A stretch of 40,129 nucleotides of DNA from an uncultured Prochlorococcus sp. (GTDB taxonomy: Bacteria; Cyanobacteriota; Cyanobacteriia; PCC-6307; Cyanobiaceae): contig CACAST010000009.1 of NCBI GenBank assembly GCA_902535185.1, positions 1-40,129 on the forward strand, read 5' to 3'. The position numbers were made by a program, and so were the translations under genes. The notes under the pieces were generated by a model. That model saw only the letters and a list, made by a program, of their open reading frames with translations. It did no database searches and was not told where the DNA came from. Numbering within the stretch: position 1 is the first letter of the stretch; the number at the start of each line of letters is the position of its first letter. Below are positions 8,118-24,824 of the stretch, in pieces.

Positions 8118-8639
8118 TTAATCTAAAAGAATATCATCTTCAGAAATTAAATTTGATGATTTACCACCCCACCAATCTAGCCAGCCAGGTAACAATCCTT
8201 CTGATGATTTCTCGCCAGTTTTCACATTAATAATTAATGAATAAATTATATTTTCACTATTGATATTTACCCTTGAAACCCTAAGTTGATTTCCACCAAA
8301 TTCAGGCGAACAATCTCCACCAAGACCGGTATAAGAGAAAGTAAATTTATTATTTTTAAAAATTCCTAAATTTATTTCATTCGCAGGCAAAGTATATTGT
8401 GGACTCATCTCATTATTTATTAGTCCTATCTGACACTCTTTAACTGCTTTCAATAAATGCTTTTCTGCAATCAAAACTTCTATAAACTCAACTGCTGGTC
8501 TAAAATTAGGAATTAATATGCTGGCGAGAATGCCAATAATAGAAGTAACAATAATAATTTCATTTATTGAATAACCAATTTGTTTAGAAGTAATTAACTT
8601 TCTTAATAAACTAATTTTTTGAAACCTCTTTATTCTCAC
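8118..8639 (-). CDS. Type IV pilin-like protein, divergent
   Basis: G|YSINEIIIVTSIIGILASILIPNF prepilin motif after a basic leader. Confidence 0.8.
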   Translation of the reverse strand: MRIKRFQKISLLRKLITSKQIGYSINEIIIVTSIIGILASILIPNFRPAVEFIEVLIAEKHLLKAVKECQIGLINNEMSPQYTLPANEINLGIFKNNKFTFSYTGLGGDCSPEFGGNQLRVSRVNINSENIIYSLIINVKTGEKSSEGLLPGWLDWWGGKSSNLISEDDILLD

Positions 8640-8841: not shown

Positions 8842-9489
8842 ATGGGAAAATCGTTTTTTGTAAGAGCCCTATCTCCAAAAATTAGGTTTGAAAAAATTAA
8901 AAACCTAACCTCATTAAATCAATTAAAGGATGAAGAAGGCTTTACACTTGTTGAACTTATTGTTGTAGTCATGATGATTGGAATTCTCTCATCAATTGCA
9001 ATCCCTCAATTTATGACTGCCGCAGATAAAGCAAAACAAAAAGAAGCTACTGGCATAGTCTCGGCTCTTGTTAAAGCTGCAACTGCTTATCAAACTGAAT
9101 ATGGTGTTTTACCTACAAATGCTGGTGAATTATCTGAATATGCAAAATTCCAAGAATGCTTTGCCGATGAAGTCGAAGATAGAGGTGGAGCTGCATGCAA
9201 GGTTGATGCTTCAGAAGCAAGTGTTGTTCGAGCAGTGGAGGAAGACGCTACTGATTTTTACACAACCTCAGGAAACTATTTGATTACATTTCAAACAACT
9301 ACAGGTACACCAGGCGACGTAAATAATCCTCCTCTTTTTCAGGTTTTAGCTAATCCCAATGGTAACCCTTACAGAGAGAATGGAAGTGCTGTTACAGGTT
9401 GTTATAACCCAGTGGCCGCTGTTTCAGAAGTTTATGAATTTACCGCAAAGCAAGCAGATAAAGGACAACAAGATTTTAGAGGATGCTAG
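8842..9489 (+). CDS. pilA: Type IV major pilin candidate PilA
   Basis: G|FTLVELIVVVMMIGILSSIAIPQFMTAADKAKQKEATGIV; compact globular domain ending in Cys, with no tail extension. Confidence 0.88.
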   Translation: MGKSFFVRALSPKIRFEKIKNLTSLNQLKDEEGFTLVELIVVVMMIGILSSIAIPQFMTAADKAKQKEATGIVSALVKAATAYQTEYGVLPTNAGELSEYAKFQECFADEVEDRGGAACKVDASEASVVRAVEEDATDFYTTSGNYLITFQTTTGTPGDVNNPPLFQVLANPNGNPYRENGSAVTGCYNPVAAVSEVYEFTAKQADKGQQDFRGC

Positions 9490-9556: not shown

Positions 9557-11683
9557 ATGAGTTTTTTCAAAAAAGAATTAAAAAATATCATTAGCGAAAA
9601 ACATAGAGGTTTTGCAATACCTCAAATACTTATATTAGGAATAGGAATTGCAGTAGGGGTTAGTGGCTTGATGGCCGCTTCTATTTTAGGACTAACTGGT
9701 TCAAAAATAACTAGGCAAGAACTATTAGCTAAATCATCTTCTTATTCTGGAATTACTAAACTAAGGGCTTTATTTAATGATAATTCAGAGGGTAGATTAT
9801 TTAATTATTTCTGGTTAGTAGATAACTGTTCAGAAAAAGCGGCAGAATGTGAATCTCTTAGTATTTCCGATCCCACCACTGAATATTGGGCTGATGATTA
9901 TTGGTGCGATGATGAAGAAAATTGTAATGGAAGGCAAAAAGCCCCTGTTTGTACTCCTTATGAGAATTTTTCTTGGATAGATGAAAAACAAATTGTTGAA
10001 AACTTTTTTAGAAATACAAATTATGTAGGTAACTCTCTTACTAATTCAAAAAGAGACTTTGACCAGGCATTCAATTTAATTTCTTCAAAATATATTGGCA
10101 CTGAAGAATCCGGTACTAATTCTATTTTAATAGAAGGTTTATCAATACCAAAAAATTCTAATGATATTTCAGGTTCTAATAAATTAAGAGTAAATATTCA
10201 AGTTAAAGGCGAAACATCAGAAGCAGGCTTTGGATTTTTCTCAGCTGGTGAAAATAATTCTGATAAAACAGATTCTCTTTTTATTGGAAATTTAAATATA
10301 TTACCTTTTAATAATGCTAAAGGTTCAATTATTTGGAGAATGAATATTGATGATATTAGTGAATGTCAAGATTTTCAGGAATTGGCTAAAGCAGAAAATG
10401 CATCATTACCTAGAAGAGGTAATGGGGGAATTTGGATTCAGCCTCTAAATTTACCCAAACAACCAAGATTAAAAAACGTTATTGATATCGGAAGCTTAAT
10501 TTGTACTCAAAAAAGATATGAGGAAAGTAATTCAAGTTGTAAATTAAGTGCCGGGAATTCTCCTCAAAAAACATTTAGAATTTATTCACTTTTTGCGAGG
10601 GGACCGGGTTCAAAATTTGAAATATCGACAACAGACGATTCAAAAGTAATTTTGGAAGTTATGGGAGATATTGATATCAGTAATGGAGGTACATTTTGTC
10701 ATAAAAATGGATCTGAAAATTGTGGTTCAGGAAAACCCGAAAATCTAACAATATTATTTAAGCAAAAAAATAAATCCAACCTTAATAAACTTGTTTGTAA
10801 TAGAGATGGTAATGATGGCGGAATAAAATTTAAAAATGATTATATATATACAGATATTGGGTATCCAATTGATAATAATCGGTTGCCAGGTAATAGCTTT
10901 CTAATTGATAAAACTGGAGAAAATCCCGACCAAAAGTTTGGGGCATTTATTTTTGGACCAAAAACAACTTTTATTTCCGCTAAACCAAAAAGCTCATGGA
11001 TCCAAGATAATAACTCTAATAATCCTAGTATGGTAGTCACTTCAAGAGGTTCTTATGGTTATATTTTAAGTAACGTGGGAGATACTGTAGAAAGTAACAT
11101 TACCAACTTAATATTAGATACCGATTTAACACTTATTCCATATGGAGGAAATCAGGAAAATGGTAATAATCTAGAAATAATTGGAATAGGTCAGAAAGTT
11201 GGTAATATTCCTACTGGGACATTATTTAATTCTTCAACAAATAATGTATTTTTAATTTTTGACAATTCAACCTCAAACTATCATTTAAGAAGTTTCAAGA
11301 CTTTAAATATTAATCGATTAAACAGTGCAAATTTTCAATATTCTTATCCAAGAGCATTCGCCATTCTAGATCCTAAAAATAGTATCAATGATATAAATCT
11401 TGGAAATAATTTAGATGAAAACTCATTAGCCAATAATTGGTTAAAGGCATTTGATATCAAAGTAAAACAAACAAATGAAAACTATTCAAGAAATTTTTCT
11501 GGGGCAGTTTGGGTAAAGAACATATGCTTTGATGATATGGGGGAAAAAACTTGGGAATTCTCAAAGAACTTTATAAATAAATTAGCCACTTGGCATGGTT
11601 CTAATTTCAATTGGGGAATAAAATATTATCGAGGCAAGTCAATTATTCTATGGGATACCTTAAGAGACTTTCAATCTAATTAA
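9557..11683 (+). CDS. Giant minor pilin, PilX/GspK-like (708 aa)
   Basis: HRG|FAIPQILILGIGIAVGVSGLMAASI prepilin-like N-terminus with Gln at position 5; first gene of a minor pilin operon. Confidence 0.7.
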   Translation: MSFFKKELKNIISEKHRGFAIPQILILGIGIAVGVSGLMAASILGLTGSKITRQELLAKSSSYSGITKLRALFNDNSEGRLFNYFWLVDNCSEKAAECESLSISDPTTEYWADDYWCDDEENCNGRQKAPVCTPYENFSWIDEKQIVENFFRNTNYVGNSLTNSKRDFDQAFNLISSKYIGTEESGTNSILIEGLSIPKNSNDISGSNKLRVNIQVKGETSEAGFGFFSAGENNSDKTDSLFIGNLNILPFNNAKGSIIWRMNIDDISECQDFQELAKAENASLPRRGNGGIWIQPLNLPKQPRLKNVIDIGSLICTQKRYEESNSSCKLSAGNSPQKTFRIYSLFARGPGSKFEISTTDDSKVILEVMGDIDISNGGTFCHKNGSENCGSGKPENLTILFKQKNKSNLNKLVCNRDGNDGGIKFKNDYIYTDIGYPIDNNRLPGNSFLIDKTGENPDQKFGAFIFGPKTTFISAKPKSSWIQDNNSNNPSMVVTSRGSYGYILSNVGDTVESNITNLILDTDLTLIPYGGNQENGNNLEIIGIGQKVGNIPTGTLFNSSTNNVFLIFDNSTSNYHLRSFKTLNINRLNSANFQYSYPRAFAILDPKNSINDINLGNNLDENSLANNWLKAFDIKVKQTNENYSRNFSGAVWVKNICFDDMGEKTWEFSKNFINKLATWHGSNFNWGIKYYRGKSIILWDTLRDFQSN

Positions 11684-12256
11684 ATGAAAACAATAAAAAA
11701 TAAAAAAATTGTTTTTTTACAAAAAAATAGATTTAATAATGGTTTTGGTCTTGTTGATGCTATTTTGAGTCTATCTTTGCTTGCTGGAATAATTACATAT
11801 GGAGTATATTTTTCTTCTTTAAGACTAAGTACTGTGTACAATTCGAACCTTATTCGCTCAGTAAATAAAGAAATTGAAAGGGATATTGAAAGATTAAAGT
11901 TAGATTTATGGAGCTTATTTTATAATCAAAATGAAGGTAAATATGAATTATCTGATCTTGAATGCTCTGATTTAGCAGCAAATATAATTAATTTACCTAG
12001 TTGGAATACTCAATCAAATAAATCTGGAGAGATTAGCCAATCATGGAGACCAGGTGAAGAAAGAAGCAAAGTTTTTAGTGGAAATAAAGTTTTAATTACT
12101 CGAGAGCTTTCAATATCATCACCCTTAGATGATGAATCACTAAATAATTCTATTGGAACTCTCAATTATAGAGTTGAATGGGGAGTAGAAAATAAGCATT
12201 GGTTAAGTATTGATTTAGGTGCTGAAGCACATAGTTGGTGTAAACAAATAATTTAA
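11684..12256 (+). CDS. Minor pilin, PilV/GspI-like
   Basis: NNG|FGLVDAILSLSLLAGIITYGVYFSSLR with Asp at position 5; immediately follows the stop of the 9557 gene. Confidence 0.7.
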   Translation: MKTIKNKKIVFLQKNRFNNGFGLVDAILSLSLLAGIITYGVYFSSLRLSTVYNSNLIRSVNKEIERDIERLKLDLWSLFYNQNEGKYELSDLECSDLAANIINLPSWNTQSNKSGEISQSWRPGEERSKVFSGNKVLITRELSISSPLDDESLNNSIGTLNYRVEWGVENKHWLSIDLGAEAHSWCKQII

Positions 12257-12257
12257 A

Positions 12258-12863
12258 ATGAATTTAAAAATTTTCAAGCTAAAGATGGATAATAAATCCG
12301 CGGGTTTTACTCTTGTGGAATTAATAATTTCAATTGGAATGATGAGTGTTTTATCTGGATTAGTTCTACCCAGTTTTCTTAATTGGATAAGGACTGAAAA
12401 AGTAAATTCTTACACAAGAGAGCTAAAAGAATATTTTCGCGTTGTTAAACTTAATTCAAGGAGATGGGGATCAAGTTGTCAAATTAATATAAATTCATTA
12501 GCACATAATGGGGTTTTAAATGACAAAAATTATTATGGTTATGATGTTTCATGCAGTGGTCGACCCACAACTATAAATAATATGGCACCAGCATTAAATA
12601 ATTCCATTTTTCAAGTTGTAAATAAAGAATTTTTAATTACACCCAATGGAAGAATAAGTTCCGACCAATCAATCGTCATTGTGATTGGATCTAAGTACCA
12701 TACTGCTGGAGCTAAAATATTAAATTGTCTTGTTATACAATCTCCCACTGGCCATATACTAAAAGGAAAATTTTCTCACAGTGATTGGATCACAAATAAT
12801 ATGCTGGTAAGTCAAAAGGATAATAATAATATTCTAACTCCAGACAAATGCGAGTTTTCTTAA
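12258..12863 (+). CDS. Minor pilin, FimT/FimU/GspH-like
   Basis: SAG|FTLVELIISIGMMSVLSGLVLPSFLNWIRTEKVNSYTRELKEYFRVVKLNSRRWG; GspH-like layout. Confidence 0.75.
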   Translation: MNLKIFKLKMDNKSAGFTLVELIISIGMMSVLSGLVLPSFLNWIRTEKVNSYTRELKEYFRVVKLNSRRWGSSCQININSLAHNGVLNDKNYYGYDVSCSGRPTTINNMAPALNNSIFQVVNKEFLITPNGRISSDQSIVIVIGSKYHTAGAKILNCLVIQSPTGHILKGKFSHSDWITNNMLVSQKDNNNILTPDKCEFS

Positions 12864-12866
12864 GAA

Positions 12867-14357
12867 ATGAATAATAAAAAACCTTCAAAAAATGGATTTT
12901 CAATAATCGAACTTATAATAGCTGGTGCCATTTCAATTACAGCAATAGGAGTAGGGTTTTCTTTATTACAAATAGCACTCAAAGGAAACAAAATAGATGA
13001 GACTCAGATGGGTTTAAATGGAAGAATTAATGATACCTTGGACTTTATGTTGGATGAGGTAAAGGCAAGCAAAAGAATTATTGATAATGAGACAGAAATC
13101 TCGCAATATAATCAAAACTGCACTTTCCCTAAAGATAGTGAATTCCTCTTTGGTATAAATCTTCCAGATCAAGCTTTAGTCAAAAGTGATTATGATCCCA
13201 AGGGTGATCAGTTCAGCTTGAGTCAGGTTGAATGTCCTATAGTCTATTCATTAAGACCAAGCTTAAATAATGAAAAAAACCCTTTTTCTTTAATAAGATA
13301 TGGACCACAATACAATGAAAGTGGTTATTATATTTCGCCTTCATATATCCAGTTTCAAGAAACAACATTATTAGACGGAATAACTGAATCTACTAAATAT
13401 AAAAAAATCTCTTGTCCTGATGAATGGAGTGGCATTAAAACTATAAAAGGAATATCTTTCTGTGTAGACCAGTTCAAGAAGGCGATTGAAATTCAAATTG
13501 AGGCAACTGATTTTGAAAGAGGTATTAGAAGTAATGAAATAAGATCTATAGCATCTATAGGGGGATTTACTTCGATTCAAGATGAGAATCAATTAATCAT
13601 TAAATCTACAAACACTAATAATTTAGAGAATTCCCCTCTTTGTGTTGGTGGGCAATGTTGCTGGATGGGTATATGTCTCAAATCTAATAAAGTTACATAT
13701 ATTATTGACAATTCTTTTTTTATGAATGAAGGTTATCCCCACCCAAATGGTCTATTAGTTAATGGTAAGTGGCAAACAGTTGATGATCCTGAGTTCATTT
13801 CTCCAAGAATAAATGGAAAAAATTTATTTGAATATACAATTAATAGCCTTAAACAACATATAAATAAACTGCCCTCTGCTAATAGTCTCTCTGAAAATAA
13901 TAAAATATATATGCAAATTATTTCAAATAATAGCTCTTCTAATTATTTATTCGAAGATGGACCTCAAGAACTTAATACTGAAAATAAAATTGCTGCACTA
14001 AGTTTTTTAAATAACTTAACAGCAGAAGTAGAAGCAGCTATTGACCCTTGGGATGATGTTTGTAGATCTTTAGAATCAGAATATATTGGACAATTGATAA
14101 TATTAAGTGCTTGGAGACCTTCTACAATCACAGCATCATCAGTCCAACCATGTGTGGGTTTAGAAGAAGGAACATTTGAAGAAATTATTAATGATTACAA
14201 TCAATTAACGAGGAGCAAATCTGCTGTAGGAGCTTTAGTTATTGATGCCATATCTCTATATCATAATTTTTGTGAAGCCTCAAAAAATATTTTTGAAAAT
14301 GACTGGTTAGGATCAATTTCAAAAGGCGCTGAATCCTCTTGCATTCATATCAAATAA
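12867..14357 (+). CDS. Minor pilin, PilW/GspJ-like, with C-terminal vWA-like domain
   Basis: KNG|FSIIELIIAGAISITAIGVGFSLLQIALKGNKID N-terminus; Cys-rich linker CVGGQCCWMGIC, then KVTYIIDNSFFM... (degenerate MIDAS DxSxx). Confidence 0.75.
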   Translation: MNNKKPSKNGFSIIELIIAGAISITAIGVGFSLLQIALKGNKIDETQMGLNGRINDTLDFMLDEVKASKRIIDNETEISQYNQNCTFPKDSEFLFGINLPDQALVKSDYDPKGDQFSLSQVECPIVYSLRPSLNNEKNPFSLIRYGPQYNESGYYISPSYIQFQETTLLDGITESTKYKKISCPDEWSGIKTIKGISFCVDQFKKAIEIQIEATDFERGIRSNEIRSIASIGGFTSIQDENQLIIKSTNTNNLENSPLCVGGQCCWMGICLKSNKVTYIIDNSFFMNEGYPHPNGLLVNGKWQTVDDPEFISPRINGKNLFEYTINSLKQHINKLPSANSLSENNKIYMQIISNNSSSNYLFEDGPQELNTENKIAALSFLNNLTAEVEAAIDPWDDVCRSLESEYIGQLIILSAWRPSTITASSVQPCVGLEEGTFEEIINDYNQLTRSKSAVGALVIDAISLYHNFCEASKNIFENDWLGSISKGAESSCIHIK

Positions 14358-14372
14358 ATTAAATAAGCATAG

Positions 14373-16127
14373 TTATTTAATTTCTTTTATGAGATTTTTA
14401 GCATCTTCATTTTGATATTCAAGATTATAGTCTGAAATATTAGATGACCTATCTTCCAGAACTTTTGGGGTTACTAAAATTATCAATTCTCTCTTATCTT
14501 TTGACGATTGTTTGGACCTAAAAAGACCACCTAATATCGGTAAATCTCCCAATAATGGATATTTATAAGTTGTATCAATATCAGTTTCTTGGATAACACC
14601 AGTTAATACTAATGTTTCGCCATCTTTTATACGTATAGCTCCCGTATCTAATCTTCTATTATTTATTTTGGAGACAGCTCCACATCCAACTATGTTAAAG
14701 CTACCTGATATTCCAGTAACAATCGGAGTCATAGTGAAAGTAACATAATTATTTTGATCAATACCTAAAATTTTTGCACCTAGTTTTACTCCAACATTCT
14801 CATAACTATAGGAACATGAACCTCCATCGTCTTTAGTGGCATCTACCGGAACCTTATCACCTATTTCAACAAAACCTTCATTCCCAACTTTTCTACCAAT
14901 ATTACTGCCATCACCAGCTGCACCAGAGGATTCACTGAGTAAAAGAGTTGGACTTGCAAGGACCTTTGTGGAACCATTCTCAATGCTAGCTTCTAATAAA
15001 CCAAAGAAAGATTTATTTGTAAATAATATCTCTCTTGGATCAGTTCCATCAATCTTCTTAACAGCCATACCTGGATTAGTAGTTGGATCTGTATCATTGC
15101 CTTCAGGGAAGACGGGCAAAAAACTTCCAAAAGCTGATTTAATTTTTCCCTGTTTGCCAATTATGAAAGCATCGTCTAGTTTGCCCCCATAATCCTTCAT
15201 AGATGAATTTTTATCTGACATATTAACATCAAGAACTTTGACACTTAAGGCAACCTGTTTTTGTTTAATATCTAATTTCCGCAAAAATCCATTTGCCAAA
15301 TCAATAAGATATTTTTCACCAACCATTGTGACAGTTTGGAGTCGCTCATCAGTTGTAGCAATCAAACCTACTAGTGGGCCAATAGTGGCGCCATAAACTT
15401 TAACTGATGTTTCTGATTGATCAGTTGTTGTAGAAGATGTTGAGGCTCCCTGAACTGCCTGAGATTGTGAGGCTCCAGAAGTAACCGAAGTTGTGATAGT
15501 AAATGTCTTTGTCACGCTAGCTCCTAAATTTGCCAAATAATCAGCAGCAGAACTCGCACTTATCTGATTTAATTGATAAACGTCAGTGCTTCTCGTGTCA
15601 AAAACAGTATTTCTTACGTTTGGGCCAACATAGAGAATATTATTATGCAGCTTTGCTTGCAAACCACTCGCCAATAATAATGAATTAATAGCTTTTTTAT
15701 AACTTACATCTTTTAAAGTCATTGAAATTAATCGCTGATTATCAACGTCATTCTCTTTATTAGGACTATTTTTAACCCATACAAATCCATAGTTTCCTAC
15801 TTCAGCAAGATACTCAAAAATTGCTTTTGCTTTAGCTTGTTTAAAGACTAATGAAACCGAGGGACCATTAATTTCTAATAAATTTGGATTAGAAATTAGA
15901 GAGGATAATAAATAATTATGATTCTGAAAAAAATTATTTTTTTTATGTATTACTTCAGAAGACTTTAGAAGAGTATTGTTATAAAAATTTTTCTCGATAT
16001 TAAATTTATAAAATGGATTAACTTCCCCCGATTTAGCACTAGTACTTAATATTGCAGTTAGTGCTAATAATGAGAATGATCTTTTAAGAGACTTTCTTTT
16101 TAAGGGCAAGTTTTTATGTTTAGTCAC
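14373..16127 (-). CDS. pilQ: Type IV pilus secretin PilQ
   Basis: N-terminal secretin/STN and N1-like domains; C-terminal VLTGVIQETDIDTTYKYPLLGDLPILGGLFRSKQSSKDKRELIILVTPKVLED secretin signature. Confidence 0.93.
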   Translation of the reverse strand: MTKHKNLPLKRKSLKRSFSLLALTAILSTSAKSGEVNPFYKFNIEKNFYNNTLLKSSEVIHKKNNFFQNHNYLLSSLISNPNLLEINGPSVSLVFKQAKAKAIFEYLAEVGNYGFVWVKNSPNKENDVDNQRLISMTLKDVSYKKAINSLLLASGLQAKLHNNILYVGPNVRNTVFDTRSTDVYQLNQISASSAADYLANLGASVTKTFTITTSVTSGASQSQAVQGASTSSTTTDQSETSVKVYGATIGPLVGLIATTDERLQTVTMVGEKYLIDLANGFLRKLDIKQKQVALSVKVLDVNMSDKNSSMKDYGGKLDDAFIIGKQGKIKSAFGSFLPVFPEGNDTDPTTNPGMAVKKIDGTDPREILFTNKSFFGLLEASIENGSTKVLASPTLLLSESSGAAGDGSNIGRKVGNEGFVEIGDKVPVDATKDDGGSCSYSYENVGVKLGAKILGIDQNNYVTFTMTPIVTGISGSFNIVGCGAVSKINNRRLDTGAIRIKDGETLVLTGVIQETDIDTTYKYPLLGDLPILGGLFRSKQSSKDKRELIILVTPKVLEDRSSNISDYNLEYQNEDAKNLIKEIK

Positions 16128-16216: not shown

Positions 16217-17083
16217 CTACTTATTCAAAGAAGGTATTTTTAAAACTAGCCTCGTTTCAACATTCCCTAATTCGGGGGTATTGTTAATCTTATCAACTTG
16301 ATTTTTAGAAATTAATGGTTCCCCTCCTTTATCTAGAGGTATTATTTGTGAATCATATTCACTATTTATTTCAGAAATAGATTCAATTGATTTTTGTTGA
16401 GAATTAACCTCTATACAAAGTGGTATGACGTTAACATCATATAATTGAATTTCTTTTAAAAATTCAACAATATCTAGATAATCTGATTTGAACGTAACTT
16501 CAAAATAATTATCAGCTAGAAGACCTTTTTTTAGAAGTTGAGGCTTCTTTACTGATTTAAATTTTTTAGATTTTTTTTGAAATGAGGAGACCTTACATAA
16601 TTTTGAGCTTTCTGGTCTAAGTATAGGTGTGAAAGAATTAATTTTGACATTTGTTGTCTTTGCAGTTTCATTCAATAATTGAACCATAAAGATAATCTGA
16701 TCATTTCTAATAAAAGAGGAATTTATCTTATCCATTTTAGTTTTTATATCTTTGAACTTAAGGCTTTGATTTTTTAAGTTAGAGATTTTTTTTGGTAAAT
16801 TTTTTGCTTCATATTGATATTTTTTTGCTTTCTTGAAAGAAGAATTAACTGTTTCAAAAGCTGGTATAAATACAAAAATTGATACTAGAGAAGCACTGAA
16901 AATACCTATTGTAGGTTTTAGGTATTTAGAGTTCCTGATATCATAAAATAATCTCCTATAGTTAATATTTTTTAAATCATCAATTTTTAAATTTTGTAGT
17001 TCCTCTAAAATAGAATTCAAATCAATTTCTTTGATTTTTTTTATTGAATCACTAATTATATTTTTAAAATTTTGCAGTTTCAC
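16217..17083 (-). CDS. pilO: PilO-like inner membrane assembly protein
   Basis: Cytoplasmic N-terminus, one TM, coiled coil, ferredoxin-like periplasmic domain; located between pilN and pilQ. Confidence 0.75.
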   Translation of the reverse strand: MKLQNFKNIISDSIKKIKEIDLNSILEELQNLKIDDLKNINYRRLFYDIRNSKYLKPTIGIFSASLVSIFVFIPAFETVNSSFKKAKKYQYEAKNLPKKISNLKNQSLKFKDIKTKMDKINSSFIRNDQIIFMVQLLNETAKTTNVKINSFTPILRPESSKLCKVSSFQKKSKKFKSVKKPQLLKKGLLADNYFEVTFKSDYLDIVEFLKEIQLYDVNVIPLCIEVNSQQKSIESISEINSEYDSQIIPLDKGGEPLISKNQVDKINNTPELGNVETRLVLKIPSLNK

Positions 17084-17090
17084 TTTTTCC

Positions 17091-17843
17091 CTAACCTCTT
17101 AAAAGTGATTTTAAATCATTAAATCTCTTCAATTTTCTAATTAAACCATTTGCTCTAGATTCTTGATAAAGATTCTCACGTTTTTTCAAATCAATTTTAG
17201 CCGTTTGACCATAAATTTCTAAATCATATGTCGTTCTAATTTTGTCATCATTCCGTGAATTAGACTCTAATCGATTCAATTTATTAACAGTAACACTTGA
17301 TTTGTTAATAACAGGAGATTCTATAATTAAAGTAAGAAATTCATTTATTGAATCTAAACTATAAGAACTTAAATTAATATCAAATCCGTTATCACTAAAG
17401 GAATAGCTATTAATTTTGACACCCTCTGGTACTGAATTCTGTAAATAAAATGCAAATAAATATGAAGTTGTTGACTGAGAAAAATATTCTTCAAAATTAT
17501 TTAAATTTTTTTTAAATCTTTTTTTTGAAGAATCTATATCCTTTAATTTTCCTGAAACTATTGAAAATTGCTTATGATCAGCTTCTAATTTTTTTATTGT
17601 AATGTTTGGAAATATATTAACTAGGTAAATACCAAAACTTAAAATTAAAATTAAGGATGATGGATAAAAGATTTCAGCATTTTTATTAAACTCACGGTAA
17701 AGAAAAACTAGTTTTTTGTCTATGCTCGCATTTGTAACTAGTAAATTAGGAGGAGATGGTCTTTGCCATGGACTTAATTTAGAATTTTTAAAGGCAAAAT
17801 TATACTTTATACGCATGATGATAATATTGAAGCCAAAGAGCAA
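17091..17843 (-). CDS. pilN: PilN-like inner membrane assembly protein
   Basis: One TM, coiled coil, periplasmic domain; operon position. Probable start is the ATG at 17816 (MRIKYNF). Confidence 0.7.
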   Translation of the reverse strand: MLFGFNIIIMRIKYNFAFKNSKLSPWQRPSPPNLLVTNASIDKKLVFLYREFNKNAEIFYPSSLILILSFGIYLVNIFPNITIKKLEADHKQFSIVSGKLKDIDSSKKRFKKNLNNFEEYFSQSTTSYLFAFYLQNSVPEGVKINSYSFSDNGFDINLSSYSLDSINEFLTLIIESPVINKSSVTVNKLNRLESNSRNDDKIRTTYDLEIYGQTAKIDLKKRENLYQESRANGLIRKLKRFNDLKSLLRG

Positions 17844-19195
17844 ACACTATGCTCAATAGATTGAGAAACGATTTCATGTATTTGCATTGTTTTAGGTTTA
17901 TATGAGTAATTTGCTAAGTTCAAATTTGCGATAGATTGAAAACCTTTTGGCAAAGCAATTTTAGAATTCAGCAATTTATCTAATCCATTCCCCATTACAA
18001 AAATATTAGTAGGTGTTTCTAAATTTATATCTTTCATTATTAAATCTACTGAGTTTAAAGCTCTTTCAAAATAACTTTTGCTTGATTTGATCAAATCATC
18101 CGTAAGATAAAGAGAATAACCGAATGGTAATTTATAGGAATTTAGTTTGGCTAAATTACTTCCTATTAATAAAGTTGTTTCTGATGATTCAATATCTAAT
18201 AAAACTGTAATTTCTTCTGTAATTTTTGAAGTTATGGAATCAAAAACATGAGCAGAAGCAGGAACTAAGCCAATTATTGGTAAATTAACCATTTCTAGGG
18301 TGTCTGTCCAACTCTGAATAAAATCTCGTTTTGCATAAATAGTTCTAACTAATCCGTTTGATATTTTAACGTCTGTCATTCTTAGAAAATCTACTAATGT
18401 ATTAGCAGGTAAATAAGGACTTTTAGATTCAACTTTTTTATCAGTTTGCGAAATCTGTTTCAAATCAGAGGTATTAAAGGTATGAATATTAAAAAAAGAA
18501 CTTGATAAAACCAATAATAATGGTGAATTTAAAAGTTCTAAAAGAGTAAGAGAATCCAATAAAATATTTGCCAATTCATTTGCATCTTCCACTAGGGAAT
18601 CGCCAATCACATTTCCTGGAATTGGAATTTCATTTAATGCAGTTACTTTTATATTATTATTAAAGTCAATAAGGGCACTTATAATTATTAAATTATGATC
18701 ACCATAAAATGCTACACCAATTTTTTGTTGATATTTTTGGTTGTTTTTATTTTCCGCTATTGTTAATTTTCTTCCTAAAAATTTATAATTTTTTAGCCTA
18801 TCATATACTTCAAAAAAATCTTTTCTTAGAGTTTCTAGTTGAAAAATATTTTGAGGATTGCGAGTCTTCTTATTTTTTTTAGTAGAGATTTTTTGATTTC
18901 TAAATCGATTTATTTTTTCAATTATTTTCTTATATATTTTTGTTTTTGAAAATTCAAAAGTAATGTAGTTAGATCTTTTTTTTGAACTTTTACCTTTTTT
19001 ATTTGAAATTTCGAGATCTTTAAATTGGTTTATCTTTTCTAAAATATTTTTATATCTTTCTTTTTTAGAGATTTGAGAAATAAACGAAACAGATTTTAAT
19101 TTAGGTAATTTTAATTGTGGTAAATAATTAGTAGAGGATAATTGCCCAAATTTTTTTATTAATTTCTTAAAAGAGAATGTTTTATTTATTTTCAT
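17807..19195 (-). CDS. pilM: PilM-like actin-fold protein with basic N-terminal extension
   Basis: EITVLLDIESSETTLLIGSNLAKLNSYKLPFGYSLYLTDDL and IFVMGNGLDKLLNSKIALP match the PilM/FtsA-fold C-terminal half; upstream of pilN. Confidence 0.75.
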   Translation of the reverse strand: MKINKTFSFKKLIKKFGQLSSTNYLPQLKLPKLKSVSFISQISKKERYKNILEKINQFKDLEISNKKGKSSKKRSNYITFEFSKTKIYKKIIEKINRFRNQKISTKKNKKTRNPQNIFQLETLRKDFFEVYDRLKNYKFLGRKLTIAENKNNQKYQQKIGVAFYGDHNLIIISALIDFNNNIKVTALNEIPIPGNVIGDSLVEDANELANILLDSLTLLELLNSPLLLVLSSSFFNIHTFNTSDLKQISQTDKKVESKSPYLPANTLVDFLRMTDVKISNGLVRTIYAKRDFIQSWTDTLEMVNLPIIGLVPASAHVFDSITSKITEEITVLLDIESSETTLLIGSNLAKLNSYKLPFGYSLYLTDDLIKSSKSYFERALNSVDLIMKDINLETPTNIFVMGNGLDKLLNSKIALPKGFQSIANLNLANYSYKPKTMQIHEIVSQSIEHSVCSLASILSSCV

Positions 19196-19671
19196 ATTAG
19201 TTTCTCAATATCTACCATAGAAAGTCTGTAATTTTTAGTTCCATTAGAGATATCTACCGTAACATCCTCTAATGAAATAAATTGAACTACAAATCCATTA
19301 TCGAGAGAATCTCCAACCTCGTAAAATTTTTGGTTGCCATCTGTCTCGATGACGGCAAAAAGCTTATTCTCTGATTTTGCTAATCCTCTGAATTTTAAAC
19401 TTGAATATAAATCTTCTATTGTTGGAAATTCAGTTTTTAAAGGGTCTTGAAAAGGGTTTCTGTTAATATTGACTTTATTCGAAGAAGTGTCAATATCTCC
19501 TTCTGGCATAGGAATTAGATCTTTTGTAATTTTATCAGCTTGAAAATATTTTTTTATAGGAAGTGAGTGTATCTCTTTTTCCTGTGCCGAGAGAAAAGAG
19601 ACTTGGCACAAGTAGCCCAAAACAAGAAATAAACTATATTTATGCAGACTATTAAAAAAAAGATTCCTCAT
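19192..19671 (-). CDS. PilP/GspC-like periplasmic protein
   Basis: Signal peptide; NPFQDPL...LKFRGLAKSENKLFAVIETDGNQKFYEVGDSLDNGFVVQFISLEDVTVDISNGTKNYRLSM resembles the PilP/GspC HR domain; 4-nt overlap with pilM. Confidence 0.65.
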   Translation of the reverse strand: MRNLFFNSLHKYSLFLVLGYLCQVSFLSAQEKEIHSLPIKKYFQADKITKDLIPMPEGDIDTSSNKVNINRNPFQDPLKTEFPTIEDLYSSLKFRGLAKSENKLFAVIETDGNQKFYEVGDSLDNGFVVQFISLEDVTVDISNGTKNYRLSMVDIEKLI

Positions 19672-19837: not shown

Positions 19838-21544
19838 ATGAACGATACTAATGAAATAAGTAAATTCCTGACTCCTGAATTATGTGAAGATGCGGGGATA
19901 ATAGTTAATGAAATTAGGGATGGGACTTTAGATTTAGGTGCGATGAATTTAGATTATATTAAAGTTAAAAAAGTTATCAAAACGGTCGAAAGTGAATACA
20001 ACTTAAAAGTTTCTCTAAAACAAATTACTTCTTTAGAATGGGAAACTTGGTTCGAGAATAATCATTCCACCTCAGTTGAAAAAATTCAAAAAAGTTCAGT
20101 TCAAAATCAAGTTTTAGAAAAAATTAATAATCTAGAAGAAGATTTAGTAAGTAATGAAAAAAGAGATTATTCCGAAATATCAACCTTTGAAAGTATTCAG
20201 GACAATCTACATAACTCAGATGAATATTTGATAAATGATGAAACAGATCTTGTCGATGATGCCAACGATGAAGCACTTATTAAATTAGCTCAGGCAAATA
20301 TAGGTGATGAATCGGAAATGGATAATGATATTTTATTTGGAGAGGAACTTACTGCATCAAATGATCCTGTAATAGCAGGTGTTGCCTCTATTTTAAGTAA
20401 GTGTTTTACCTTGAAGGGTTCAGATATTCATGCAGAGCCACTGGAAGATCGCTTAAGGATAAGATATAGAATTGATGGGGTTTTAAAAGAAGCTTTCGCT
20501 TTCCCAAAATCACATGTAAACCCAATAATTAGTAGGATTAAAATAATGAGTAAGTTAGATATATCAGAAAAAAGATTGCCCCAAGATGGAAGAATTAGAT
20601 GCCTCTTAAGAGGAAGAAGGTCTGATTTTAGGGTAAGTACTTTGCCTGGGAGATGGGGAGAAAAAGTTGTTCTTAGAGCTCTTGAAAGTGATAATTCAGT
20701 ACTAAACCTTTCGAAATTAATAACAGAAAATGATGAGCTAAATTTAATAAAAAATATGTCTAAATCTCCATATGGAATAGTAATTGTAGTTGGGCCTACA
20801 GGTAGTGGTAAATCAACAACTCTATATTCGATGCTGAGTGACCTTAATAAACCAGGAGTTAATATTAGTACAGTTGAAGATCCAGTAGAATATACACTTG
20901 ATGGCATTCATCAAGTACAAGTTATTAGAGAAAAGGGACTTGATTTCTCAAGAGCTTTAAGGTCTTTAATGAGGCAAGATCCAGATATTATTTTGGTAGG
21001 AGAAACTAGAGATAAGGAAACAGCACAAGCTGCAATGGAAGCAGCATTGACTGGACATATGGTTTTTACGACAATGCATGCTAATGATACGGCAACTGCT
21101 ATTACAAGGCTTGCCGAAATGGAAATTCCACCTTACCTTATTGGGGCCTCGATCATAGGAGTTGTTGCTCAAAGATTAGTTAGGAAAGTTTGCAAATCTT
21201 GTAGTGAATCAAGAAAAATAAATAATCATGAAAATCACTTGGCATTTTCTTTAGGAGTAGAAAAAGCAAGATTCATAAACAAAAGTAATAAAGGCTGCCC
21301 TGTATGCAATGGAAGTGGCTATAAAGGAAGAATAGGTATCTATGAAGTTATGAAAGTTAATGACTTGATTAGAGATTTAATAATGAAGCAATCCAATGCA
21401 GATGAAATAAGAGAAAGCGCATTTAAAAAGAATGGAAGAAGTCTTCTAACATATGGAATGAATCTAGTAAAAAAAGAACTTACTACTATTGAAGAAGTTG
21501 AACGTGTTTGCTTACTCAATGACACTCAATCAGAGGAATTATGA
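19838..21544 (+). CDS. pilB: Type IV pilus extension ATPase PilB
   Basis: Walker A GPTGSGKSTT, GspE signature LRSLMRQDPDIILVGETRDKETAQAAMEAALTGH, tetracysteine CKSC...CPVC. Confidence 0.95.
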   Translation: MNDTNEISKFLTPELCEDAGIIVNEIRDGTLDLGAMNLDYIKVKKVIKTVESEYNLKVSLKQITSLEWETWFENNHSTSVEKIQKSSVQNQVLEKINNLEEDLVSNEKRDYSEISTFESIQDNLHNSDEYLINDETDLVDDANDEALIKLAQANIGDESEMDNDILFGEELTASNDPVIAGVASILSKCFTLKGSDIHAEPLEDRLRIRYRIDGVLKEAFAFPKSHVNPIISRIKIMSKLDISEKRLPQDGRIRCLLRGRRSDFRVSTLPGRWGEKVVLRALESDNSVLNLSKLITENDELNLIKNMSKSPYGIVIVVGPTGSGKSTTLYSMLSDLNKPGVNISTVEDPVEYTLDGIHQVQVIREKGLDFSRALRSLMRQDPDIILVGETRDKETAQAAMEAALTGHMVFTTMHANDTATAITRLAEMEIPPYLIGASIIGVVAQRLVRKVCKSCSESRKINNHENHLAFSLGVEKARFINKSNKGCPVCNGSGYKGRIGIYEVMKVNDLIRDLIMKQSNADEIRESAFKKNGRSLLTYGMNLVKKELTTIEEVERVCLLNDTQSEEL

Positions 21545-22614
21545 AATTAACTAATCTTATGTCAGAGTTAGTAAAAAGAAATGGTTCTGACCTTCATTTA
21601 ACAGGAGACAGCTATCCTTTTTTCAGAATTCAAGGACAAATTTTACCAGCATCAAGCGAACAATATTCAAGTAAAGAATTGAGAGCAGATCTCACTCAAA
21701 TTCTAGGTCAAGAAAAGCTTGCAAAATTTGACAAAGAAAAGGAACTTGACTGTAGTTACGGGTTGGAGGGGATTGCGAGATTTAGAATGAACATATTTAT
21801 AGATAGGGGTAAAATTTCATGTGTAATGAGAGCACTCAATACTGAAATCCCGAGTTTTTCAAAAATTGGTCTTCCTGATAGTGTTCAACAACTCTTAAGT
21901 AGACCTAGAGGATTAATGCTTGTAACTGGTCCAACTGGATCTGGGAAAACGACAACTCTAGCAAGTGGGATTGATTGGATTAACACAAACTTTGCGCATC
22001 ACATCTTGACTATTGAAGACCCAATAGAATTTATATATAACAACAAAAATTGTTTAGTAAGACAAAGAGAAGTTGGAGAGGATACATTTTCCTTTTCGAA
22101 TGCATTAAGGTCTGCACTAAGAGAAGATCCTGACATTATATTAGTTGGTGAAATGAGAGATTTGGAGACAATAAGTTTAGCCATTACTGCAGCAGAAACA
22201 GGTCATTTAGTATTAGGAACTTTACATACAGCTTCAGCCTCTCAAACAATAGACAGAATAATTGATGTCTTCCCAACATCCCAACAAATGCAAATCAGAG
22301 TTCAATTATCTTCTTCTTTAATAGGTGTAATATCGCAAACACTTTGTAAAACTATTGATAATAAAAGATGTTTAGCAGCAGAAATATTAGTAAATAATAA
22401 TGCCATTGCAAATTTGATTAGAGAAGCAAAAGCTTCGCAAGTTTATTCACAACTACAAATAGGAGGAAAATTTGGAATGCAAACTTTGGAACAATGCTTG
22501 TCAGAACTTGTCGCCAAAAGTGCAATTACCACTGATGAAGCCTTATATAAATGCAATAGACCAAATGTGTTGAAAGGTTTGCTAGAAGAAATCAATTCTG
22601 AAATACCAACGTAA
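21541..22614 (+). CDS. pilT: Type IV pilus retraction ATPase PilT
   Basis: Walker A GPTGSGKTTT, LREDPDIILVGEMRDLETISLAITAAETGHLVLGTLHT; ATGA overlap with pilB. Confidence 0.95.
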   Translation: MKLTNLMSELVKRNGSDLHLTGDSYPFFRIQGQILPASSEQYSSKELRADLTQILGQEKLAKFDKEKELDCSYGLEGIARFRMNIFIDRGKISCVMRALNTEIPSFSKIGLPDSVQQLLSRPRGLMLVTGPTGSGKTTTLASGIDWINTNFAHHILTIEDPIEFIYNNKNCLVRQREVGEDTFSFSNALRSALREDPDIILVGEMRDLETISLAITAAETGHLVLGTLHTASASQTIDRIIDVFPTSQQMQIRVQLSSSLIGVISQTLCKTIDNKRCLAAEILVNNNAIANLIREAKASQVYSQLQIGGKFGMQTLEQCLSELVAKSAITTDEALYKCNRPNVLKGLLEEINSEIPT

Positions 22615-22646
22615 ATTGATATGAACTTAAGAACTAAAAAACAATA

Positions 22647-24008
22647 ATGGACTATAAATATATTGAAAACGCTAAATTAAGAAGGCTTATGCAAAAAGCC
22701 AGGCATAAAAGAAAGGTGCTTGATAATCCAAATAGAATTCCAGAACATAAAAATGCCAAAATAACTCAAAAATATAAAAACGTTATCCCCATACCGTCAA
22801 AAAATCAAAACTTAAGAAAAAAAGAAAAAAATAAACTTTCAATTTTGAAAACTTATGTTGAATTAAAAATACAAGAAAGGAAAGAATTTATTGAAGGTGA
22901 TATGACATCACTTAGAGATAAAAAGAAAATATTAAAGCCAAGGTCTATGGAGGGAAGAAGATTAAAAAGCCCTCCAATCAAAGATTTAGCAGTAGCCACA
23001 AAACAGCTTTCTTCGATGATTAGAACCGGATTACCTTTATTAGAATCCTTAAATATCATTGCAGATACTTCTGAAAATATATCCATAAGATACTCATTTA
23101 AAGAGATAGCCTCAGGCATAAGCAAAGGTTCTACCATGTCTGAAATGTTAGATAAATATCCAGAAGTATTTAATGAAATGTATAGAGCGCTTGTAAGTGC
23201 AGGCGAAACTGCTGGATTATTGCCAAACACTTTAGATCGACAAGCAAAATTATTAGAAAGTCTTGCAAAAATAAAGGGTCAGATAAAAAGCGCTATGGCA
23301 TATCCTTCAGCGATAGCAATACTCACAATAGTAATAGTTTTTATAATGATGCTTTTTGTTATTCCAATTTTTGTAGATATTTATGATCAATCAGGTGCTC
23401 CACTTCCAGGAATTACACAATTTTTAATTGACTTATCAGATCAACTTAGATCAATTGAATTTTATTTCAAAGCGGTTCCATCTGGCCTTGCAATTTTTCT
23501 TTTTTATAAATATATATCAAGTAGATCGGCGGTTATTTGGTGGTATGACAAAACTCTTCTCCAATTACCTATCACAAAAGACTTAGTAACAAAATCATGT
23601 TTAGCTAATTTTTCAAGAACTTTATCCTCTTTAAATAGTGCTGGAGTTCCAATTTTAGAGGCCCTAACAATTGCAAAGAAAACTTTAAAAAATAGAATTT
23701 TCACAAGAATTATAGAAAATGCCTATTACGATATCCAGGCAGGCAATCCCATGCACAAAGCTTTTGATAAAGAATCCGCGATACCGATAATGTTTACTTC
23801 CATGTTTAGGATTGGAGAAGAAACAGGGGAGCTAAGTGAAATGATTACAAAACTCGCTGATTTTTATGAAGATGAAGTTTCTTCAAGCGTCAAAAGTTTA
23901 ACTTCAATAATGGAACCTTTAATGATAATTTTTGTAGCTGTTTTTGTAGGAATTATATTAATTGCTATGTATTTGCCCATGTTTAGTATGATGTCTACAG
24001 TGGGTTAA
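22647..24008 (+). CDS. pilC: Type IV pilus inner membrane platform protein PilC
   Basis: GspF-type duplication (ATKQLSSMIRTGLPLLESL... / FSRTLSSLNSAGVPILEAL...), C-terminal EPLMIIFVAVFVGIILIAMYLPMF. Confidence 0.95.
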   Translation: MDYKYIENAKLRRLMQKARHKRKVLDNPNRIPEHKNAKITQKYKNVIPIPSKNQNLRKKEKNKLSILKTYVELKIQERKEFIEGDMTSLRDKKKILKPRSMEGRRLKSPPIKDLAVATKQLSSMIRTGLPLLESLNIIADTSENISIRYSFKEIASGISKGSTMSEMLDKYPEVFNEMYRALVSAGETAGLLPNTLDRQAKLLESLAKIKGQIKSAMAYPSAIAILTIVIVFIMMLFVIPIFVDIYDQSGAPLPGITQFLIDLSDQLRSIEFYFKAVPSGLAIFLFYKYISSRSAVIWWYDKTLLQLPITKDLVTKSCLANFSRTLSSLNSAGVPILEALTIAKKTLKNRIFTRIIENAYYDIQAGNPMHKAFDKESAIPIMFTSMFRIGEETGELSEMITKLADFYEDEVSSSVKSLTSIMEPLMIIFVAVFVGIILIAMYLPMFSMMSTVG

Positions 24009-24020
24009 ATCTTTTTAATT

Positions 24021-24824
24021 TTATAAAAAGAATACCTCTAAAAAAATCTCATTACCAAAGTACCAAACAAGTAATGCAGAGGAAGCCAAGAAAACCCCAA
24101 AAGGTATTTTTTGATTACTTTTTATTTTTTTAAAAATAAAACCTAAAATCACAAAAATACCAGCCGATATAAATGCAAACCATATTGTTATAAATAATCC
24201 TTGTATACCTAACCAAGAACCAATCATGGCACTTAGTTTTGCATCTCCCCCTCCAATTACGGATTTATTATAAATTTTTTTACCTATACGACTTAATAAA
24301 TTAAAAAAAGTAAAACCTAATAAAGAAGCAAGTAATGTATAAAATGAATAATTAAATTGATAAAAACCATTATTAAGATCAATAAAAAAAGATATAGTTA
24401 TTCCTAAAACCAAACCTCCTGAAGTAAGAACTTGCGGAAGCCAAAAATATTTAAAATCTAATATTGCTAAGGTAAATAAAATAACACTAAAAATGCATCC
24501 CAAAAATAAAATTACATTTATTGGTTGTTGACTATAGATTGTTGGATGAGCGTATAAATTAAGACAAAATAAAAGGCCTGTAGATAATTCAATACAAGGG
24601 TAAGAAAAAGCTATTTTGTTCTTACAAGCTCTGCATTTACCTCTTAATAAAAGCCAACTTATTATTGGTATATTATCAAACCATTTAATTTTTGAATTAC
24701 ACCTAGGACAACTACTACTAGGATAAACTATTGATTGATTTAAAGGTAATCTATGAATCACTACATTTACAAAGCTTCCCATACAACAACCAATTACAAA
24801 TAAATATATCAACATTATTTCCAC
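24021..24824 (-). CDS. pilD: Prepilin peptidase PilD
   Basis: Zn motif CPRC...CRAC, GGGDAKL aspartyl motif, multi-TM; convergent with pilC. Confidence 0.95.
   Translation of the reverse strand: MEIMLIYLFVIGCCMGSFVNVVIHRLPLNQSIVYPSSSCPRCNSKIKWFDNIPIISWLLLRGKCRACKNKIAFSYPCIELSTGLLFCLNLYAHPTIYSQQPINVILFLGCIFSVILFTLAILDFKYFWLPQVLTSGGLVLGITISFFIDLNNGFYQFNYSFYTLLASLLGFTFFNLLSRIGKKIYNKSVIGGGDAKLSAMIGSWLGIQGLFITIWFAFISAGIFVILGFIFKKIKSNQKIPFGVFLASSALLVWYFGNEIFLEVFFL

Follow-up and report, generated by a model that had tools for sequence, protein, structure and literature searches.

A type IV minor pilin encoded by an uncultured Prochlorococcus carries a C-terminal von Willebrand A (vWA) domain whose metal site (MIDAS), judging from alignments and a tree, has been eroded while the domain itself was kept under purifying selection. 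Prochlorococcus ranks with the most abundant phototrophs. The gene lies in the window, meaning here the whole stretch of DNA that was analyzed (40,129 nucleotides; contig C9 of a source genome of 1.02 Mb that is 65% complete), where it closes a minor-pilin gene set beside a type IV pilus locus (Table 1). Taken as a whole, the protein is rather probably a modular tip pilin, in which the MIDAS was ancestrally present and then lost, the domain being retained as a tip or cork element.

Table 1. Features of the vWA-pilin gene and of its surroundings in the window.
Feature	Position	Strand	Basis and remarks
GspG/PilA-like pilin	8842..9489	+	Pfam/NCBIfam search; upstream in the pilin set
PilX/GspK-like minor pilin candidate, 708 aa	9557..11683	+	GFAIPQ, Glu5 replaced by Gln; without family match
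PilV/GspI-like minor pilin candidate (GFGLVD)	11684..12256	+	sequence and gene order
FimU/GspH-like minor pilin	12258..12863	+	Pfam/NCBIfam search
vWA-pilin gene	12867-14357	+	ORF bounds exact; 496 aa, ATG start
Class III (prepilin) leader MNNKKPSKNG	12867..12896	+	translation; cleavage expected after Gly10; N_methyl cut-off passed by homologues
Pilin module, residues 11-240	12897..13586	+	hydrophobic alpha-1 helix and beta-rich domain; full-length conservation in relatives
Cys-rich linker, residues 241-272, with CVGGQCCWMGIC	13587..13682	+	fast-evolving; alignment and dN/dS
vWA domain, residues 273-496 (~224 aa)	13683..14354	+	profile-profile, Pfam and Foldseek evidence via relatives
Remnant of MIDAS DxSxS, D281-N-S283-F-F285	13707..13721	+	alignment, codons checked; D281 and S283 retained, F285 in place of the second S
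Insertion of 24 aa, residues 288-311	13728..13799	+	alignments; directly after the DxSxS loop
I392 at the MIDAS Thr position (GGT-nPW in relatives)	14040..14042	+	alignment, codons; gapped stretch, residue assignment approximate
A415 at the MIDAS Asp position (LSDG in relatives; Asp319 in S. sanguinis PilB)	14109..14111	+	alignment, codons
PilQ secretin, transcribed toward the vWA-pilin gene	14373..16127	-	Pfam Secretin 3e-28
PilO-, PilN-, PilM-, PilP-like alignment subcomplex	16217..19671	-	PilN E 1.4e-4; T2SSC E 1.5e-3; rest by position
PilB ATPase, PilT retraction ATPase, PilC platform (+); prepilin peptidase (-)	19838..24824	mixed	profile matches

The open reading frame can be taken as a real gene, since stop-free, full-length orthologues with 71-82% identity are found in other Prochlorococcus genomes; the closest records to the window are Prochlorococcus single-cell genomes. 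Elsewhere, one vWA-pilin frame (L033; G250:C32:6819-7934) is broken by three stops (one TGA and two TAG), and is either a pseudogene or an assembly error. In the window, the leader MNNKKPSKNG is followed by FSIIELIIAGAISITAIGVGF, which gives a mature protein starting with FSIIE, with Glu at mature position 5 and a hydrophobic alpha-1 helix, as expected of a type IV pilin. The canonical class III-signal pilin N-terminus described in the initial annotation can thus be read directly from the translation, and the Cys-rich linker that it reported was found in its place. The window protein itself hits none of the Pfam pilin models and remains below the N_methyl threshold, which its homologues pass. 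The secondary structure of the pilin module comes from low-confidence AF2 modeling (pLDDT 36 for the full-length protein). The label PilW-like agrees with the position in the minor-pilin gene set, but no PilW or GspJ model matched the window protein at E 1 or better in the Pfam/NCBIfam search; the pilin module is, therefore, kept as a candidate PilW/GspJ-like module, named from gene order. Five cysteines (C264, C270, C429, C469, and C492) are conserved in the clade of the window protein.

Sequence searches of Pfam, NCBIfam, and the PDB with the window protein gave no match for the C-terminal region, and the AF2 model of this domain is weak (pLDDT 55, pTM 0.61, built on only 7 sequences). Both points would suit another alpha/beta fold that resembles vWA by chance, which is nevertheless extremely improbable in view of the relatives. 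In the first alignment, relatives that align over their full length, with identities as low as ~31%, have IDxSGSM, GGTnPW, and LSDG. The VWA_3 model of Pfam was matched at E 0.01 or better by 9 of the 11 canonical domains, and several of the relatives with a canonical MIDAS scored above its cut-off, with a best E of 1.5e-10. When a profile of the canonical relatives was compared with all PDB sequences, the top match was Streptococcus sanguinis PilB (7b7p, E 3.4e-7), followed by the PilB D319A mutant (7ba2). HHalign joined the profile of the window clade to that of the canonical relatives with probability 100 and E 4.3e-39, the match spanning the entire domain. Because the window clade is tied in this way to relatives that themselves match VWA_3 and PilB, residues 273-496 can be assigned to the vWA superfamily, by a path that is transitive via intermediates, but strong. 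A fold comparison by Foldseek against the PDB, using the weak AF2 domain model, returned almost only vWA structures (top E 7e-6, TM about 0.4), including PilB D319A at E 8.6e-4. A chance resemblance is effectively refuted by the profile evidence, and the pilin-vWA fusion proposed at the outset is supported.

The metal site is another matter. Of its five positions, the window protein keeps D281 and S283, with F285 in place of the second Ser, I392 in place of Thr, and A415 in place of the distal Asp; by alignment, it lacks the complete DxSxS, T, D motif of metal-dependent vWA adhesins. The initial annotation had recognized a MIDAS-like DxSxx in which the second Ser is replaced, which is correct, but the site proves more degenerate than that. 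The strand QLIILSAWRP, also quoted there, is present and bears the lost Asp position (ILSDG in relatives), and the other strands quoted all occur in the translation. In S. sanguinis PilB, the metal ligands are Ser206, Ser208, Thr291, and Asp319 (PMC8179133), and their counterparts in the window protein are S283, F285, I392 (approximate), and A415. The PilB motif DGIPN aligned with the lost-Asp position in the PDB profile match, and reads AGIPN in the D319A entry. With this mutation, PilB no longer bound metal, and twitching and adhesion were lost, although the fold and piliation remained normal (PMC8179133). A415 occupies the position of the engineered D319A, a mutation that has already been made and characterized and that the natural loss of the MIDAS parallels. 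By comparison with this mutant, the window domain presumably no longer binds Mg2+ or Mn2+. As the loops of the old site are only weakly modeled, a metal site that is weak or altered and includes the remaining D281 and S283 could still exist.

The loss can be followed among homologues. In a set of 78, the MIDAS (DxSxS, T, D) is intact in 57, degenerate in 20, and intermediate in one; it is intact in all 43 homologues added in a second round, mostly from larger genomes. The intermediate, L029, has DKSYS and TDG, and has lost the Thr. In the 78-row tree, two canonical rows with an insertion beside the site (L031 and L032) are followed by L029, and then by 18 degenerate rows, in successive nesting (SH-aLRT 99/97/91). 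Alignment and tree together indicate that the MIDAS was eroded in one well-supported clade via a graded intermediate, in the direction from intact to lost. A second, separate loss concerns L041 and L042, in this tree as well as in a smaller, more careful one. Some branches are long, and the precise count of losses could therefore shift, but the starred branches require two or more label changes. L041:949-2361 and L042:420-1832 stand on a long stem branch and have also lost the first motif Asp (AIATNSSL).

In the window clade (19 rows), D281 and S283 are kept throughout, and position 415 is occupied by A in 14 rows, S in four, and D in one. For pairs with measurable dS, the dN/dS of the vWA module is 0.09-0.21, slightly higher than that of the pilin module, at about 0.06-0.18 (NG86 estimates, saturated for some pairs). 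As these values are close to each other, the vWA domain is maintained under purifying selection. The decay of an unused domain was considered and ruled out, given a dN/dS of ~0.1-0.2 and the conservation of D281, S283, and the cysteines.

What the domain now does may be connected with the 24-residue insertion. It is missing after the DxSxS loop in one group of canonical relatives; an insertion next to the MIDAS is already present in the canonical L031 and L032, and precedes the loss of the MIDAS on the tree. The motif H.NG....G.W of the 24-residue insertion (H292, N294, G295, G300, and W302) is invariant in seven Prochlorococcus rows, and this conservation speaks for some surface function. Both the invariant residues and the order of events would favor a new site that binds a ligand, such as a glycan, without metal and is made from the insertion and from the residues that replace the metal ligands. 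Such a site is on balance unlikely: the replacing residues vary in the clade (position 285 is F, Y, L, V, N, or A), and the insertion evolves faster than the remaining domain in most pairs (dN/dS analysis).

The gene context bears on where the domain is displayed. The vWA pilin is the last gene of a plus-strand set of PilX-, PilV-, FimU-, and PilW-like pilins, beside a complete type IV pilus locus that includes PilT (NCBIfam TIGR01420, 455 bits against a cut-off of 319). The order large X-like, V, U, and vWA pilin is common to larger-genome relatives. The product of 9557..11683 was assigned as PilX/GspK-like because its mature position 5 is Gln, and PilX/GspK lack Glu5 (PMC7541494); this large protein could be the actual tip adhesin. 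Two further pilin-like frames were seen. The first is a lone ORF at 8118-8639 of the window, on the minus strand, opposite to the minor-pilin set, with a weak signal, and an ORF of the same length stands at the matching place in L050. The second, L045:9920-11263 (G283 cluster), is another PilW-like pilin, in which weak matches to RTX calcium repeats (E 0.003) replace the vWA domain, possibly a modular pilin as well.

Placement at the tip is suggested by the minor-pilin set, by PilB modeling (PMC8179133), and by work on PilY1 and minor pilins in Myxococcus (PMC7541494). At the pilus tip, the PilW-like module would enter the priming complex of minor pilins, and the fused vWA domain would be displayed there, standing in for a separate PilY1. 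The ancestral domain would have bound metal through its MIDAS, like S. sanguinis PilB. An insertion beside the site would then have arisen in this Prochlorococcus clade, and the subsequent loss of three of the five metal-site residues would have left a domain without Mg2+/Mn2+-mediated ligand binding. It would be retained as a tip or cork element, possibly with a metal-free contact surface provided by the insertion. The role as tip adhesin, the retained role as tip or cork, and any new ligand are all presumptive. A stronger version, put forward tentatively, comes near to an even call. Here, a metal-dependent tip adhesin would have been converted throughout the clade, by an insertion and then a stepwise loss of the site (lost at least twice in picocyanobacteria), into a tip protein that needs no metal and has a new surface for binding or corking, so that the tip would no longer grip in the manner of PilB.

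Picocyanobacterial pili are thought to serve flotation and escape from grazing, not attachment, and the tip protein has so far not been considered. Adhesion may simply have been given up, the domain acting only as a structural cap or cork, which would prime assembly and halt retraction at the secretin, while the pili provide drag, buoyancy, and grazing defense in open water. This fits because picocyanobacterial PilA1 pili slow sinking, hold cells in suspension, and hinder grazing (PMC7994388). The PilB D319A mutant, which retains fold and piliation without twitching or adhesion (PMC8179133), points the same way, as does the proposal that the vWA part of Myxococcus PilY1 is a plug or cork of the priming complex (PMC7541494). 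The presence of PilT nevertheless implies that the pili presumably retract, the invariant residues of the insertion exceed the needs of a passive spacer, and several small-genome relatives retain a canonical MIDAS; a pure cork is somewhat doubtful. A role for the domain as a mechanosensor of tension or contact through the secretin, for which metal would not be needed, is improbable. It has been proposed for CpaL, a pilin-vWA fusion (PMC12607857), and for PilY1 as a surface sensor acting by force-induced change (PMC8806160), but CpaL has a MIDAS motif. The cork, the new ligand, and the mechanosensor overlap as readings. The natural series of sites (intact, intact with insertion, partial, and lost) asks whether the metal of vWA tips serves adhesion or something else.

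The pilin-vWA fusion is widespread in picocyanobacteria. Query A4 matched 143 of 398 genomes of the family, many by the N-terminal pilin part alone, and the full fusion is present in roughly 70-75 of the 398 among the matches listed. In 146 genomes drawn from the class, no full fusion was found outside the family among the matches listed, which were limited to the pilin end or, rarely, to a short vWA stretch in frames of 800-900 aa. Among these listed matches, there was no sign of a vWA-pilin family spanning all cyanobacteria. The fusion accompanies the window type of PilQ (47% identity or more, or split or fragmentary) in 27 of 27 genomes, and six genomes of the same genus with a PilQ of 37-39% identity are without it.

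Some genomes carry two vWA pilins, all with an intact MIDAS: G200, G266, G318, G371, G389, G395, and G419 (L069/L070, L079/L080, L046/L088, L081/L082, L084/L085, L073/L074, and L086/L087, respectively). The two are on the same contig, ~6.5-13.5 kb apart, in six of these seven genomes, and are possibly paralogous tip sets. G382 has two canonical vWA pilins that are closely related (L051:7836-9209 and L052:6596-7957) and stand ~12 kb apart on one contig, one within a full minor-pilin set and the other outside it.

The PilY1/PilC beta-propeller (PF05567) is not found in the window protein by Pfam. The initial annotation had seen no separate pilY1, and PF05567 had no match in 100 relatives or in 12 genomes positive for the vWA pilin (most of them 99-100% complete). 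The positive control rang in none, then in only one (Haloferax), of 14 genomes, and because it was nearly silent, the absence of PilY1 is unproven.

Pilin-vWA fusions are already known, from PilB (PMC8179133) and, as a prediction, from CpaL (PMC12607857). The openly accessible papers searched yielded no report of vWA pilins in picocyanobacteria, nor of a vWA pilin whose metal site was lost under selection. What is new is a clade that has lost the MIDAS but conserved the vWA domain. S. sanguinis PilB (7b7p; 7ba2; PMC8179133) is, like the window protein, a minor pilin of type IV pili that ends in a vWA module; it is the best PDB match of the family vWA profile, and its motif follows the same order (DxSxS, T, D). 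However, PilB binds Mg2+/Mn2+ and host proteins, whereas in the window protein three of the five motif residues are missing; it also has a 24-aa insertion, a Cys-rich linker, and extra conserved cysteines, and its source is a diderm phototroph. CpaL of Caulobacter crescentus Tad pili (PMC12607857) is also a predicted minor pilin with a vWA domain, modeled at the tip, but it belongs to a Tad system, and its vWA domain is split by a beta-rich insertion and has a reported MIDAS motif. PilY1/PilC (PF05567) place a vWA domain at the type IVa pilus tip in several species, as proposed for the window protein, although they are non-pilins with a beta-propeller, which the window protein lacks. The canonical vWA pilins of larger-genome picocyanobacteria (such as L046, L047, and L048) share gene order and full-length homology with the window protein, and differ from it in having an intact DGSGSM/GGT/DG site and no C-terminal cysteine set.
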